Shown here: positions 41,299 through 53,263 of the stretch, one piece after another
Position numbering within the stretch: the stretch's first letter is position 1
Layout of the letters: every line of letters starts with the position of its first letter
Assembly: GCA_030950925.1 (NCBI GenBank)
Contig: JAUZQO010000029.1
Location: 1 to 64,000, forward strand
Length of the DNA stretch: 64,000 bases
From: Mariprofundaceae bacterium
Lineage (GTDB): Bacteria; Pseudomonadota; Zetaproteobacteria; Mariprofundales; Mariprofundaceae
Direction of reading: 5' to 3'
Made by a program: the position numbers and the translations under genes
The notes under the pieces: model-generated
Told to the model about the DNA's origin: nothing
Seen by the model: the letters and a program-made list of their open reading frames with translations, nothing else
Database searches by the model: none

Positions 41299-42542
41299 CA
41301 GGGCAATCGCATTAAGACTTTAGCATAGATTCTACTACAAATAAGCATATAAATCAATTATTTAACTGTATATATCCCATGTTATAATTATGCTACTATG
41401 ACAAAAAAGACAGCAACTTCATCCATTATCAAGCATTTTTCAACCATTGTTGACCCTCGCATGAACAGGCGAAAGCAACACACCTTAAAGATATATTTTT
41501 TATCACGCTTTGCGCATCGATTTGTGGAGCTGATAGCTGGGTTTCTATTGAGACCTTCGGTAAGGCAAAAGAAGCATGGTTTACCAAGGTGTTATCACTG
41601 AAAATGGGATCCTTTCGCACGATACTTTTGGCTATGTTTTTTCGGTGATTGATATTGAAGAATTTAGCCGATGTATTAGCCACTGGGTGACATATTTATG
41701 CGAACTTAACGGTGATGAAATCATTAGTATCGATGGAAAATATTTACGCAGAAGCATGGATACTGCATCGAATAAAGCTGCCATTTATATGGTCAGTGCA
41801 TGGTCTTCATCGAATCAACTTGTGCTGGGGCAGCAGCGCGTTGATGATAAACCCAATGAGATTACAGCGATCCCAAAATTGTTGATGCAACTCGATATTA
41901 CTGGTGCTCTTGTGACACTGGATGCGATGGTATGTCAGAGCAAAGTTGCCAATGATATTATCGAACGAAATGCTGATTATATGTTGACTCTTAAATGAAA
42001 TTAGGGGTTGTTGCATAAGGCTGTAGCATTGTTTTTTGAATCCAAAAAGACCTCACCAGAAATAGGGTTTGAGAGCATTGATCGTGGGCACGGACGGATA
42101 GAAAAACGGTCTGTTCGCGCATCATCTGACATTGATTGCCTCAAAGAACGACACCCCGCATAGAGAGGGTTGCGCAGTATTGTTGCAGTCACCGCTAAGC
42201 GAGAATGCAATGGAAAAGAAAGTGAAGAGACGCCTTACTTCATCTGTAGTTTGGATGCTGAATACCCCAAACGTCTTGGTCAGATTGTGCGATCTCATTG
42301 GGAGATTGAAAACAAGTTACATTGGGTTCTTGATTATGCTTTTGATGAAGATTCCAACCGTGCTCGAAAAGAAAATAGTGCGGCAAATATGGCAGAGGTT
42401 CGGCATATTGCATTGAACTTAATTAAAGCAGATAAATCCTCAAAAATAGGCATTAAAAACAGGCGACTTAAAGCGGGGTGGGATAATGATTATATGGCGT
42501 TGTTACTCTTAGACCGAGCTTGATTTTAATGCGATTGCCCTG
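41299..42542 (+). mobile_element. ISAs1-family insertion sequence, decayed
   Basis: Exact 17-bp terminal inverted repeats (cagggcaatcgcattaa) lie at 41299-41315 and 42526-42542, giving 1244 bp. Flanking 10-base tracts ttacctttag (41289-41298) and ttaccttctt (42543-42552) match at 7 of 10 positions, consistent with an old target duplication. The transposase inside is broken by several frameshifts and stops. Confidence 0.88.
41398..42523 (+). pseudogene. ISAs1-family transposase, multiply frameshifted
   Basis: Pieces of one protein appear in successive frames: IVDPRMNRRKQHTL at the start, LSHDTFGYVFSVIDIEEF, GDEIISIDGKYLRRSMD and MVSAWSSSNQLVLGQ in the middle. NADYMLTLK, then VALFFESKKTSPEIGFESID and GHGRIEKRSVRAS, follow in another frame. 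The end reads VRSHWEIENKLHWVLDYAFD and AEVRHIALNLIK. At least three lesions separate the pieces. Confidence 0.9.
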
Positions 42543-42968: not shown

Positions 42969-43868
42969 ATGCCCGATTACACCTATCAGAATCTGATTCG
43001 AGAAAACCTTAATCAGCTTGAAAAACAAAAAAAAATGAATGCTTTAAGCACCTGTTTTTTCACCCATCTTTTCCACCTAAACCCTGAATTGGCGGATGTG
43101 TTGGATGGTGATGTCATGATGCTTCATCGTAAGTTTGCCAACACCATGGCAACGTTAAAAAATATTCGTTATTTGGATAAAATATCCTCAGCCATTGAAG
43201 CCATGGCACTGCGTCACGTGGGTTATGGTGCTGAAATTCAGCATTTCACAGCATTTCGCCAAGCCTTATTGAATGCCTTACAAGAATTATTGGCCGAATA
43301 TTTCACAGCTTCACATCAAGAAGCTTGGCAAAAAACATTTGATGCTGTGGCTGATATTATGCAACGGGTAATGCAAGAAAACCCGAGGCTAACCCAAAAG
43401 AAGACCATTGCTATGACCCAAAAAACCCACCTTTTGGATGATATTGGTGGTACTGAAAAGATTTTGGCTGTGCATCAACGGTTTTATGATGCCATTTATA
43501 ACGATACTTACTTGGTTGGATTTTTTCATCACCGATCTAAACGAGAACTGATTGAAAAACAAACCGAATTTATGGTCGCAGCCTTTGGCGGTGAAAATCA
43601 TTATGCAGGTCAACCCCCTGCCTTTATACATATGCATATGTTCATCACCAAGGAGATGTCCGATATTCGTACTATTTATCTTAAAAAATCCATTCGTGAA
43701 GAAGGCTTAAGTGATGATATTGCCCAACGATGGCTTGCCATTGACCATACATTCCATGCATCTATTGAAAAAAAGAGTGTGGGTGAATGTGTCATGCGTG
43801 CACTTTTTCAGCAACCGTTAACCGTGAAGAAACCTGATGATTATCAAGCTCCCATGGATCACACATGA
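42969..43868 (+). CDS. Two-domain globin: M-type globin fused to truncated hemoglobin
   Basis: In this 299-residue protein, residues 1 to about 138 look like a single-domain/flavohemoglobin-type globin, with the proximal His 83 in ALRHVGYG (canonical RHVGYG). Residues about 155-285 look like a group 1 truncated hemoglobin. IGGTEKILAVHQRFYDAIY is the start, FGGENHYAGQPPAFIH gives His 221 at the proximal position, and WLAIDHTFHASI is the last helix. No reductase domain is attached. Both heme pockets seem intact, so it could bind two hemes for NO or O2 handling. AGGAG precedes the ATG, and it overlaps the SDR gene by 4 bases. Confidence 0.82.
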   Translation: MPDYTYQNLIRENLNQLEKQKKMNALSTCFFTHLFHLNPELADVLDGDVMMLHRKFANTMATLKNIRYLDKISSAIEAMALRHVGYGAEIQHFTAFRQALLNALQELLAEYFTASHQEAWQKTFDAVADIMQRVMQENPRLTQKKTIAMTQKTHLLDDIGGTEKILAVHQRFYDAIYNDTYLVGFFHHRSKRELIEKQTEFMVAAFGGENHYAGQPPAFIHMHMFITKEMSDIRTIYLKKSIREEGLSDDIAQRWLAIDHTFHASIEKKSVGECVMRALFQQPLTVKKPDDYQAPMDHT

Positions 43869-44758
43869 AGAAACAATACATATTGATTCTTGGTTGTGGT
43901 TATGTAGGAAAAAAAATTGCACAAGCTTGTTTGGCAGAAAATATGCAAATTTTAGCATGCACACGCAGCAAAGACCATGCAGAGGAACTACAAGACCTAG
44001 GAATTCCAGCCCTTGTTTGCCAAAGCCCTGACAAGCTACCTCATCACCTTCTTCAACAAATCACCCACCTCATTGATTCCATTCCATTGACGCGTAAAGG
44101 TGAAAGTATGTTTGCTTCACAATTCCATTTTATACCCATACTTACACCGAAATTGACATCATTACAGTGGGTCGCTTATTTATCCACCACAGGTGTGTAT
44201 GGTGATGCCAAAGGGGCATGGGTGAATGAAAACAGCACCTGTCAACCACAAAGTGAGCGTGGAAAACAACGTTTATTGGCAGAAAAATTTTGGTTAGAAA
44301 GTGGTTTACCCGCTGAAGTCTTTCGTTTGGCAGGCATTTATGGGCAAGAGCGAAATATCATCCCGCGCTTAATGGCAGGAGATTACAAAGCTATCGCTTG
44401 GCAACCTGAACATTACTCAAGCCGTGTTCATGTTGATGATATTGTCCGCACACTGATGGCAGCCATGCATCAGCCCCGTGCTGGTAGAATCCTTAATGTT
44501 GCCGATGATTTACCTCTACCACACCATCAATATGTACAACAAGTCGCTGCCATGATCGGTGCACCTGCTCCCATCATACTCACACCTGAAGAAGGCAAGG
44601 TGCAACTTTCTGCCACGGTTTTATCTTTTTTCGGCGATAACAAGCGTATCTGCAACCAACAGCTACACCATGAACTTTTACCTGTTTTACAATATTCCAA
44701 TTTTCAATCAGGGATCACCCATATTCTTCAGTATATGTCCAAACATAAGTCCAAATAA
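43865..44758 (+). CDS. NAD(P)-dependent sugar epimerase-like SDR (YeeZ type)
   Basis: The 297-residue protein has an N-terminal Rossmann loop LILGCGYVGKKIA, STTGVYGDAKGAWVNE and RLAGIYGQERN. The usual YxxxK is not clear: the expected place reads SERGKQRLLAE. That fits the atypical SDR group of E. coli YeeZ. It is translationally coupled to the globin gene (ATGA overlap). Substrate unknown. Confidence 0.82.
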   Translation: MKKQYILILGCGYVGKKIAQACLAENMQILACTRSKDHAEELQDLGIPALVCQSPDKLPHHLLQQITHLIDSIPLTRKGESMFASQFHFIPILTPKLTSLQWVAYLSTTGVYGDAKGAWVNENSTCQPQSERGKQRLLAEKFWLESGLPAEVFRLAGIYGQERNIIPRLMAGDYKAIAWQPEHYSSRVHVDDIVRTLMAAMHQPRAGRILNVADDLPLPHHQYVQQVAAMIGAPAPIILTPEEGKVQLSATVLSFFGDNKRICNQQLHHELLPVLQYSNFQSGITHILQYMSKHKSK

Positions 44759-50435: not shown

Positions 50436-51008
50436 TTACATCAATTCAAAATCATCGACCCATTCTTCTTGCTCACCACCCACCTCACTCTCAATAACCT
50501 CTTGCAATAGGGCTAAAACCAATGTTTTGGAGTCTTCTTTTTCACGTGGATCACAAGGAATAATATTGGCATTCTCTGCTCCCAGCTCGTCAGCCAAAGT
50601 ATCTAAATCGTGCGCACCTTCTTTATCTCGATGTGTGGCACCAATAATAATCGGTGTATCCGCTTTATTTCGATAGTATTGATACATTTTTTTACCTTCA
50701 TCAATGGCACGTTGACTGCTCGAATCCACCAAAAAAATAGTTCCCAATGCACCACGAGAAAGCACTTTCCACATAAAATTAAAACGAGATTGCCCAGGCG
50801 TACCAAACAAGTGAACATCCAAAGTTTCATCCACATGCAAAATACCAAAATCCAAGCCTACAGTCGTCATCGCCTTAAATCTTGCGAGTCCATCTGTAGC
50901 TTTTACATCTTTGCTTAATAATTGTTCGGAAGAAACAAAACGAATCAAGGTGGTTTTTCCCGCTGCAAAAGGACCTGTAACAAGAATTTTTGTAATGTCT
51001 TTTGCCAT
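50436..51008 (-). CDS. Small Ras-like GTPase (CvnD/COG2229 type)
   Basis: The 190-residue G domain shows Walker A GPFAAGKTTLI, switch I TTVGLDFG, switch II HLFGTPGQSRF, and IIIGATHRDK in the place of NKxD, keeping the Asp. IIPCDPREKED is the last base-contact motif. This is the group of prokaryotic small GTPases that pair with roadblock proteins (Cvn, MglA-like). The acidic C-terminus lacks a lipid signal. It starts 2 bases after paralogue A ends. Confidence 0.88.
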   Translation of the reverse strand: MAKDITKILVTGPFAAGKTTLIRFVSSEQLLSKDVKATDGLARFKAMTTVGLDFGILHVDETLDVHLFGTPGQSRFNFMWKVLSRGALGTIFLVDSSSQRAIDEGKKMYQYYRNKADTPIIIGATHRDKEGAHDLDTLADELGAENANIIPCDPREKEDSKTLVLALLQEVIESEVGGEQEEWVDDFELM

Positions 51009-51010
51009 AA

Positions 51011-51712
51011 CTAAATCTCCCGTATTTTATTTAAAATGCGATTTACTATACCCAAGCGACGACTGTTTTTCTTTTGTGTTTTCTTTGTGGCAGCTTTCGG
51101 CTTAATTAAATCCAAGCAATAACCCAAGACCAAGACTTTAACCTGCTGTTCCAATGAAATATAGCTTGGACGTTCATCGAAGAAGTTCGCCAACGTAAAA
51201 CCCTTATCTTTCAATGAAGCTTGATATAAGGTTAGGTAAGTTAGGGTATCATTGTAACCATAATGATGCATTGGCACCATTTTTACATCAACAGGAGGAA
51301 GCTGGCTAAAACTTTCTTTAAGCTGTATCAATACTTCATCTTCCCAGTGAATGGTGTTCAATACACGCGTCAACACAATGGGTGGTGCGGCGGCTTCTTG
51401 CGAATCATCACCACTACATTGAATGTTTAATGTGTTATCGACATTGAATGCCACGTCATCTGAATTCACCTCTGCACATTCCACAGTAAACTTGCAACCA
51501 ATGCATGGAAACGTTAGAAAATTCTTCAATCCGTTAACGGTCATGGAGTCACTAAGTAAATTACCCAAAAGCATATTCATCTTTATTTCTTCGTTTTCAA
51601 CTGTCTCATAACGAATATTACCCGTATGTGCTTTGGATATAGCTTGTCGTAATATACCCAAATGCTTAAAAGATGGTTTCTTTTTATCAGATATCACTTC
51701 GTCTTCTGACAT
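51011..51712 (-). CDS. Unknown protein, paralogue A of the GTPase/roadblock module
   Basis: The 233-residue protein shares four blocks with the gene at 52113. They are PSFKHLGILRQAISKAHTG near the start, APPIVLTRVLNTIHWE, FSQLPPVDVKMVPMHHYGY, and SLEQQVKVLVLGYCL, plus a basic C-terminal helix (RRLGIVNRILNKIREI). A middle insertion with Cys residues (FPCIGCKFTVEC) is not in the other copy. The N-terminal part resembles PATAN/DUF4388-type domains that accompany Ras-like GTPases, at low confidence. It is probably an effector or scaffold of the adjacent GTPase. Confidence 0.7.
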   Translation of the reverse strand: MSEDEVISDKKKPSFKHLGILRQAISKAHTGNIRYETVENEEIKMNMLLGNLLSDSMTVNGLKNFLTFPCIGCKFTVECAEVNSDDVAFNVDNTLNIQCSGDDSQEAAAPPIVLTRVLNTIHWEDEVLIQLKESFSQLPPVDVKMVPMHHYGYNDTLTYLTLYQASLKDKGFTLANFFDERPSYISLEQQVKVLVLGYCLDLIKPKAATKKTQKKNSRRLGIVNRILNKIREI

Positions 51713-52112
51713 GATTAAGATGCCCCCCTCTCATCGTCGGTAAAATATTACGCTTGCACACCTTGATTTTAAATAGAAAAAACCAAGTCTACTACATCAG
51801 CTTAACTATCACGAAATCCTTTGGCAATTCAAATATTATTTTTCAAGCATACCTGCACCAATTTCGCAGAGTCAATCCGCCTGAAAAACAAGAGTCTATA
51901 ACCCTTTGATTTATAAAGTTCATATTGAATGATACTTCGAGGTTTTCGGCGGTGTAACATTAAATAGAGAATGATGTTTTCCAATGAGGCGGGGGATTAC
52001 TTCATGAGAAACCCAAAAAAGTTGGCGAAGCTATGACTGATCAATGTGAGTCTCTGCCTAACTACCGTTGTTTAACAAATGTTAGGCACTTAAAACTTGA
52101 AAAAGCATGATA
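51713..52112. other. 400-base gap inside the GTPase/roadblock module
   Basis: It separates the paralogue A-GTPase pair from the roadblock-paralogue B pair. Short open stretches on both strands end quickly and match no protein that I recognise. It should hold the promoter of paralogue A. No terminator with a U-tract is apparent. Confidence 0.5.
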
Positions 52113-52766
52113 TTACATACCTCTTATTTTATCCAAAATACGACTCGCTATATTTGTACGACGCATACGTTTTTTTCCTTTTCCTTTTTCCTTTGCAGAA
52201 TGAGTCGCCACATGTGGGGTAATGAGTCCCAAACAATAACCCAAAACCAAGACTTTGATTTGTTGTTCGAGCGAGGTATAAGGTGGGCATTCATTGAAAA
52301 ATTTGACGGTGGTGAAATGTTCATCTTTCAAAGCCTCTTGGTACAACATCAAATACGTCAGACCATCACTATAACCATAACGGTGCAAGGGTATCATTTT
52401 TACATCAATCGGCGGTAATTTAGAAAATGTTTCTTTCAGTTGTTCCAGTGTTTCAGGTTCCCAATGAATATCATTCATCACACGTGTCAAAACCACGGGC
52501 GGTGCAAGCCTTTCTAATTTTTCTTCAATACGTTCAGTGATCAATTCACAATTTGAAATTGATTTCGTCAATAATTTTTTCAATGCCTTAACCGTTTCTT
52601 CATCATTGATCAAATCACCCACGGTAACATGGATTTGCCCTTCTTCTTCACCTTTTGTTTTATAAATAATCTCACCTGTATAGGCCTGTGATAAAGCTTT
52701 ACGTAACACACCCAGATGTTTAAACGATGGTTCTATGTGTTTATTTTCCGATTTCTTTGGCATCAT
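52113..52766 (-). CDS. Unknown protein, paralogue B of the GTPase/roadblock module
   Basis: The 217-residue protein is co-linear with paralogue A: PSFKHLGVLRKALSQAYTG, APPVVLTRVMNDIHWE, FSKLPPIDVKMIPLHRYGY, SLEQQIKVLVLGYCL and a strongly basic tail (KGKGKKRMRRTNIAS). It lacks the Cys-rich insertion. The start overlaps the roadblock stop by 4 bases, so the two are translationally coupled. No enzyme motif is visible. Confidence 0.7.
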   Translation of the reverse strand: MMPKKSENKHIEPSFKHLGVLRKALSQAYTGEIIYKTKGEEEGQIHVTVGDLINDEETVKALKKLLTKSISNCELITERIEEKLERLAPPVVLTRVMNDIHWEPETLEQLKETFSKLPPIDVKMIPLHRYGYSDGLTYLMLYQEALKDEHFTTVKFFNECPPYTSLEQQIKVLVLGYCLGLITPHVATHSAKEKGKGKKRMRRTNIASRILDKIRGM

Positions 52767-53158
52767 GATTTCTCTATGGCTTGTGTAATTTTTTTAGCTG
52801 CATCTCGGCTCGCCGATAACACCAACCCCATATTGGCTTGCGCTTTCCCCAATACAGTTAAAATCAAACCACCTGCATGCAACACCACCAAGGTTCCATC
52901 ATTCGATTCACTCAACACCTTATCACAATGTCCATCTTCAGAACGAGAGGACAACGCATCTGCCAAGGAAATCAATGAAGCACTCATGGCTGCCATCACG
53001 TCCAATTCATCATCAATACCTGTACCTGCCAACATCAAACCATCAGGACTTGCCAATACTGCGGTATCAATCGCATCCGATTCATTCACCAGCGTTTGCA
53101 ACAACACCGCACACAAAGATTTCTTATCATCTGTAATCACTTCTGATACAAAGTTCAT
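52763..53158 (-). CDS. Roadblock/LC7-domain protein (MglB/CvnB-like)
   Basis: The 131-residue protein has the roadblock pattern: IDTAVLASPDGLMLAGTGID, helix DVMAAMSASLISLADAL, then TLVVLHAGGLILTVLG and ANMGLVLSASRDAAKKI. Such proteins act as GTPase-activating or scaffold partners of small GTPases like that at 50436. The ATG at 53158 follows AGGTGG; a GTG 9 bases earlier is possible. It is first in its operon. Confidence 0.85.
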   Translation of the reverse strand: MNFVSEVITDDKKSLCAVLLQTLVNESDAIDTAVLASPDGLMLAGTGIDDELDVMAAMSASLISLADALSSRSEDGHCDKVLSESNDGTLVVLHAGGLILTVLGKAQANMGLVLSASRDAAKKITQAIEKS

Positions 53159-53263
53159 ACTTACCACCTTTTTTATAAAATTATTTCAAGCACAGCATAA
53201 ACAAAAAGTATGACATTTTAGATTAAAAAATAATGTTACTTACTTCACTAAAAACCAGCGTCA

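Follow-up and report, generated by a model that had tools for sequence, protein, structure and literature searches.

To our knowledge, the known bacterial globin fusions join one globin to a reductase or a signalling domain. In a 2006 census, the bacterial chimeric globins were flavohaemoglobins and globin-coupled sensors (PMC1457004). HGbRL of Methylacidiphilum infernorum (PDB 3WFW and 3WFX) is an M-globin fused to a Roadblock/LC7 domain, and it has been called unique to Methylacidiphilum (PMC4476040). In the closed form of its globin part, N-HGbRL, Lys-E10 is bound to the haem iron, and Arg80 and Tyr84 are propionate-binding residues (PMC4476040). Ligand entry causes a large movement, which has been proposed to carry a signal to the attached Roadblock/LC7 domain (PMC4476040). 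Hell's Gate globin I (HGbI) binds O2 with Tyr-B10 and Gln-E7. NosP (FIST) proteins bind haem, detect NO with it and regulate kinases (PMC12570481).

We analysed a 64,000-nucleotide stretch of DNA, referred to here as the window, from a marine zetaproteobacterium of the family Mariprofundaceae. Positions 42969 to 43868 of its forward strand hold one intact 299-codon open reading frame, with an ATG start, no internal stop, and an AGGAG motif upstream. The 299-aa product, bi-globin, consists of an N-terminal M-type 3/3 globin domain (residues 1 to 142; 42969 to 43394), a flexible linker with pLDDT below 50 (residues 143 to 152; 43395 to 43424), a C-terminal group-1 truncated 2/2 globin domain (residues 153 to 266; 43425 to 43766), and a C-terminal tail (residues 267 to 299; 43767 to 43865). 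Cys274 in this tail is invariant in the fusions and missing from stand-alone relatives. Immediately upstream of the gene lies a broken DDE transposase (PF01609) in two frames (41576 to 42523, forward strand).

Each half was scanned separately against Pfam. The N half (residues 1 to 142) matched PF00042 Globin (1.1e-9; 39.2 bits, cut-off 22), and the C half (residues 143 to 299) matched PF01152 Bac_globin (2.8e-12; 47.3 bits, cut-off 21). Sequence searches of the PDB returned VHb, HGbI and N-HGbRL for the N half, at about 1e-9 to 1e-10, and M. tuberculosis HbN (3.3e-8) plus other group-1 truncated haemoglobins for the C half. An AlphaFold2 model built from a 12-sequence alignment of fusions had a mean pLDDT of 82, with low confidence at the linker. 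When this predicted model was compared by Foldseek, the N half matched HGbI (TMt 0.88) and the C half matched the P. caudatum truncated haemoglobin (0.91) and HbN (0.84). The N half thus has the 3/3 fold, the PF00042 match and the proximal His-F8 of an M-type globin, and the C half, closest to HbN among solved structures by sequence, has the 2/2 fold, the PF01152 match, and the Tyr-B10, Gln-E11 and His-F8 of the TrHb1 group.

A first-pass annotation had proposed, from the sequence, that this protein fuses an M and a T globin and has no reductase domain. Pfam, PDB and AlphaFold2/Foldseek results agree with it on both halves, and its positions and motifs are exact: ALRHVGYG at residue 80 (including His83), IGGTEKIL at 159, FGGENHYAG at 206, and His221. 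It would have been undone by a half that did not score as a globin; both score above the curated cut-offs, and structure prediction places globin folds in both. The Pfam scan of the two halves found no FAD/NAD reductase domain, no Protoglobin/sensor-globin domain (PF11563) with a same-chain transmitter, and no fused Roadblock/LC7 domain; Roadblock genes are neighbours instead. Promoter and terminator scans gave nothing beyond chance. We infer that bi-globin is a soluble globin that probably binds two haems.

The haem pockets of the two halves differ. In HbN, the set of Tyr-B10, Gln-E11, the paired Phe of the CD region, and His-F8 is tied to O2 and NO chemistry. In the T half, Tyr-B10 (Y173), Gln-E11 (Q198) and His-F8 (H221; 43629 to 43631, aligned with the proximal His of HbN) are invariant in 18 fusions, and the paired Phe is retained in every fusion compared. 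Bi-globin shares with M. tuberculosis HbN and the group-1 truncated haemoglobins the 2/2 fold and the residues Tyr-B10, Gln-E11 and His-F8, but it has a preceding 3/3 globin and an extra tail with the conserved Cys274.

Conservation is lower in the M half than in the T half. Residues 50 to 56 (43116 to 43136) form the start of helix E of the M half, and alignment to HGbI and N-HGbRL places Leu52 at E7, Lys55 at E10 and Phe56 at E11. Position E7 is Leu, Ile or Arg in 18 of 18 fusions, so Gln is lost; G5 is Phe or Leu in 17 of 18, so Tyr is lost there; and B10 is Phe or Tyr. All seven comparators (five stand-alone relatives, HGbI and N-HGbRL) keep both Gln-E7 and Tyr-G5. The window protein, with Leu52 at E7 and Phe93 at G5, has neither residue of this flavohaemoglobin pair. 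Therefore, the label "flavohemoglobin-type" given by the first-pass annotation was right about an M-type globin but too specific, since the nearest solved relatives are HGbI and N-HGbRL. By fold and by sequence the N half belongs with HGbI and the single-domain M-globins, but it differs from HGbI in having no Gln-E7 and either Phe or Tyr at B10. Flavohaemoglobin (Hmp) and Vitreoscilla haemoglobin also share the M-type globin at the N terminus, but bi-globin lacks the FAD/NAD reductase domain and has lost Gln-E7 and Tyr-G5. A flavohaemoglobin that shed its reductase was rejected as a description of bi-globin: what follows the M half is a truncated globin, and the M half itself lies closest to HGbI and HGbRL.

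HGbRL, together with HGbI, forms the nearest solved subgroup of the M half and has Lys-E10 and the Arg-His-x-x-Tyr motif in common with bi-globin. It differs in that the second domain of bi-globin is a truncated globin and that Gln-E7, and mostly Tyr-G5, are lost. In the fusions, Arg82-His83-x-x-Tyr86 is invariant and aligns with Arg80, Tyr84 and the proximal site of N-HGbRL (His83, at F8, is encoded at 43215 to 43217). Lys-E10 (Lys55) is also invariant, whereas stand-alone relatives have Lys, His or Arg. At the sequence level, this lysine occupies the haem-ligating position of HGbRL. Because the N-HGbRL lysine ligates haem and Lys-E10 is invariant in the fusions, we predict by analogy that Lys55 may ligate the haem of the M half in the window protein. 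HGbI likewise has Lys-E10, but outside the pocket, which calls for caution about this prediction. The invariance of the Arg82-His83-x-x-Tyr86 motif and Lys55, together with the low M-half dN/dS, suggests that the M half retains haem.

We found 22 full-length fusions: 13 in Mariprofundaceae, eight in Gammaproteobacteria, among them Candidatus Venteria ishoeyi, and one in G041, the fusion-bearing genome that is the sole member of its class. Among the 74 Mariprofundaceae genomes searched, 14 have the gene, namely the 13 full-length copies and G248, in which it is interrupted by the contig end. Identity to the window protein in the fusion alignment ranges from 77 to 33%. In half-by-half trees, all 18 fusions taken in fell on one side of a single branch (N half, 99/99; C half, 97/100), with an uncertain root and a long-branched G041 row. 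Because each half forms one clade, one fusion event explains the fusions, and independent fusions are unsupported. Among stand-alone globins, the closest to the N half are M-globins of the Venteria order, and the closest to the C half are Mariprofundaceae truncated globins; the genome of the window itself encodes one of the latter (35% identical). dN/dS values of 0.06 to 0.14 across both halves, and of about 0.06 to 0.10 in the M half, indicate purifying selection; for pairs that are further apart, dS is saturated. By these sequence comparisons, the fusion is real, arose once, and is old. Two mobile origins were also rejected: IMG/VR had no locus related to bi-globin, and plasmids gave only single truncated globins at 27 to 35% identity.

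An assembly error or frameshift that joined two adjacent genes would be the trivial explanation, and fragmented assemblies in most of the genomes and an internally deleted version in G010 could be cited for it. Its probability is negligible against 22 full-length copies from different genomes with the identical join, one of them within a 1.45-Mb contig, and against the congruent single clades and purifying selection of both halves. The G010 copy, a same-genus bi-globin gene (G010:C11; L076 4908 to 5312, reverse strand), has an in-frame internal deletion that removes the T domain, so that the protein runs from the M domain, to about residue 104, straight into the C-terminal tail. This deletion could be real or an assembly error.

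The first-pass annotation had also called the combination unusual. Full-text literature searches, covering mainly open-access papers, gave no prokaryotic M-T globin fusion, in keeping with that view. Among multidomain globins, an M-globin fused to a TrHb1 globin without a reductase looks unusual.

The genes around bi-globin belong largely to signalling. An epimerase/SDR-like gene (43865 to 44758, forward strand) overlaps the bi-globin stop codon at an ATGA, an adjacency common to G007 and G010, and because of this overlap the two genes are probably co-translated. At 7 to 10 kb downstream of bi-globin, on the opposite strand and beyond unrelated genes, is a Roadblock/GTPase cluster (50436 to 53167). 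It contains an MglA/Ras-like small GTPase (50436 to 51008), with homologues in the bi-globin loci of G004, G241, G182, G278 and G640, and a Roadblock/LC7 (MglB-like) protein (52763 to 53167; PF03259, 1.5e-9, with PDB Roadblock matches for the family). Between the two, in tandem on the same reverse strand, are two genes of the C8 family, a conserved GTPase partner; they lack a Pfam match and are about 50% identical to each other (51011 to 51712 and 52113 to 52766).

Genes of this cluster are near bi-globin in nine of the 15 Mariprofundaceae stretches examined. The members are Roadblock/LC7 (C6), MglC/MglB-fold (C4), Roadblock-like (C1), MglA-like GTPase (C7), conserved partner (C8), ABC1 kinase-like (C5) and metallophosphatase-like (C17) proteins. 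When the profiles of C1 and C4 were compared with Roadblock, the matches were weak, and the Roadblock-like Pfam match of C1 is below the cut-off. Because its profile comparison was weak, C4 was examined by structure prediction, and the predicted structure matches MglC/MglB. The linked cluster thus holds both a Ras-like GTPase and a Roadblock protein, as an MglA/MglB-type system does, and it shares GTPase, Roadblock and MglC-fold proteins with the MglA/MglB/MglC polarity module of Myxococcus. Unlike that module, it has ABC1 kinase-like, metallophosphatase-like and C8 proteins and a haem protein. The link to Roadblock is made by fusion in HGbRL and by gene neighbourhood in bi-globin.

A Roadblock match lies within 10 kb of bi-globin in eight of 20 fusion genomes versus 0.23 expected, a count that is indicative only, because it ignores the relatedness of the genomes and the 10-kb limit was set after the data were seen. 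In more than half of the fusion genomes, no Roadblock gene lies close to bi-globin. In the gammaproteobacterium G640, GTPase, Roadblock, C4 and phosphatase-like genes adjoin bi-globin, and its C4 is 57% identical to that of G004. This linkage fits both selection and joint transfer. The Roadblock-GTPase clusters of G004 (L072 1822 to 12335) and G640 (L102 1438 to 5601) are possibly undescribed. Both encode several Roadblock-fold proteins and a metallophosphatase-like protein; that of G004 additionally encodes an ABC1 kinase-like protein and uncharacterised C2, C8 and C18 proteins.

Other bi-globin loci have kinases. G401 is a Beggiatoa relative that belongs to the Venteria order. In it, the genes that come after bi-globin encode a response-regulator/kinase, a NosP-like FIST protein (its NCBIfam NosP score of 4.5e-108 falls under the cut-off of that model), and an Hpt-domain kinase. 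This one genome recalls the NosP NO-sensing kinase systems, but bi-globin itself lacks a FIST domain. In G011, a hybrid kinase follows bi-globin. Among the loci examined, only G402 has an adjoining reductase, a ferredoxin/FAD reductase gene divergent from bi-globin. In G002, a separate truncated globin gene (G002:C36; L069 6822 to 7217, reverse strand; PF01152, 5.3e-36) lies 90 bp upstream of bi-globin on the same strand, and there may be three globin domains in one operon.

The window genome has, at a separate locus (C75; L108 4394 to 6624), an NsrR-like repressor, a truncated globin and a ferredoxin/FAD reductase. Judged by its genes, this locus could be a better candidate for NO detoxification than bi-globin. 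Here, in G009 (G009:C6, L110) and in G004 (G004:C213, L111), an NsrR-like regulator is divergent from group-1 truncated globin(s) beside a 2Fe-2S/FAD reductase, and in G009 and G004 one truncated globin has a hydrophobic N-terminal segment. This recurrent arrangement looks like a Mariprofundaceae NO-detoxification locus. In G016, a 288-aa frame (G016:C14; L109 1262 to 2125, forward strand) encodes a hydrophobic N-terminal segment and then two tandem truncated globin domains (PF01152); next to it lie a further truncated globin gene and a gene for an Rrf2/NsrR-like regulator.

We suggest, with confidence no better than even, that bi-globin is a two-haem gas (NO/O2) sensor that feeds Roadblock-GTPase or kinase signalling. 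Haem binding, the ligand, lysine gating and partner contact are what we infer from the comparisons above. In this scenario, a single old fusion joined an HGbI/HGbRL-like M-globin to a group-1 truncated globin. The T domain, with its Tyr-B10/Gln-E11 pocket, would bind O2 or NO and might oxidize NO. The M domain, with an apolar distal pocket and with Lys-E10 as a potential internal sixth ligand, would be closed at rest and would open once a ligand, most likely NO, displaced the lysine. In Mariprofundaceae and one gammaproteobacterium, MglB/MglC-like Roadblock proteins and the MglA-like GTPase may read this change of shape; in the Beggiatoa relative, a histidine kinase alongside NosP may do so. 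The narrower form, a two-lineage sensor that controls an MglA-B-C-like Roadblock/GTPase switch, with one haem ligand-binding or catalytic and the other a Lys-gated switch, is more tentative.

Several observations lead us to the sensor: both halves are globins with an invariant proximal His; among solved globins the M half lies closest to HGbI and N-HGbRL, the latter a Roadblock-fused Lys-E10 globin; Lys-E10 is invariant while Gln-E7, and mostly Tyr-G5, are lost; Roadblock/GTPase or kinase-NosP genes lie near bi-globin in a number of genomes; and the separate NsrR-like/truncated globin/reductase locus could cover NO detoxification. However, the catalytic-looking T-half pocket also fits an enzyme. 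Bi-globin might be an NO-detoxifying enzyme, with an HbN-like NO dioxygenase T domain, a separate reductase, and an M domain that relays electrons or ligand, along the lines of the electron or NO transfer between haems raised in the first-pass annotation. The invariant Tyr-B10 and Gln-E11, the HbN-like fold and the divergent G402 reductase all suit such an enzyme, but the M half lacks Gln-E7 and Tyr-G5, the other loci examined have no adjoining reductase, the window genome has its separate detoxification candidate, and the neighbours are signalling genes; we consider it unlikely.

Low-O2 habitats are typical of Mariprofundaceae and Beggiatoa relatives, and in such microaerophiles two haems of unlike affinity might store O2 or pass it to respiration. 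A role in O2 homeostasis has been proposed for the additional globins of iron oxidisers (PMC3770913). Such O2 buffering is quite improbable for bi-globin, whose M half no longer has the two residues with which HGbI stabilizes O2, whose gene is linked to Roadblock, GTPase and kinase genes, and whose occurrence in Mariprofundaceae is patchy. Alternatively, only the T domain would bind ligand, and the M half, rarely or never holding haem, would have a structural or docking role and keep the T globin attached to partners. Its lower conservation and lost distal residues agree with this role, but the invariant haem-site motif and Lys55 and the low dN/dS, which suggest haem retention, make it a poor prospect too. 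On balance we favour gas sensing over NO dioxygenation, O2 buffering and a docking-only M half, and we do so with about even confidence.

Bi-globin places 3/3 and 2/2 globin lineages in one chain, with differently specialised pockets, and offers a natural test of whether sensing and catalysis are divided between two haem sites. Taken with the naturally fused HGbRL, its linkage to Roadblock/GTPase genes suggests that MglA-type GTPase switches receive input from haem-based gas sensing. If this is true, the ligand and the output of such globins would become directly testable.
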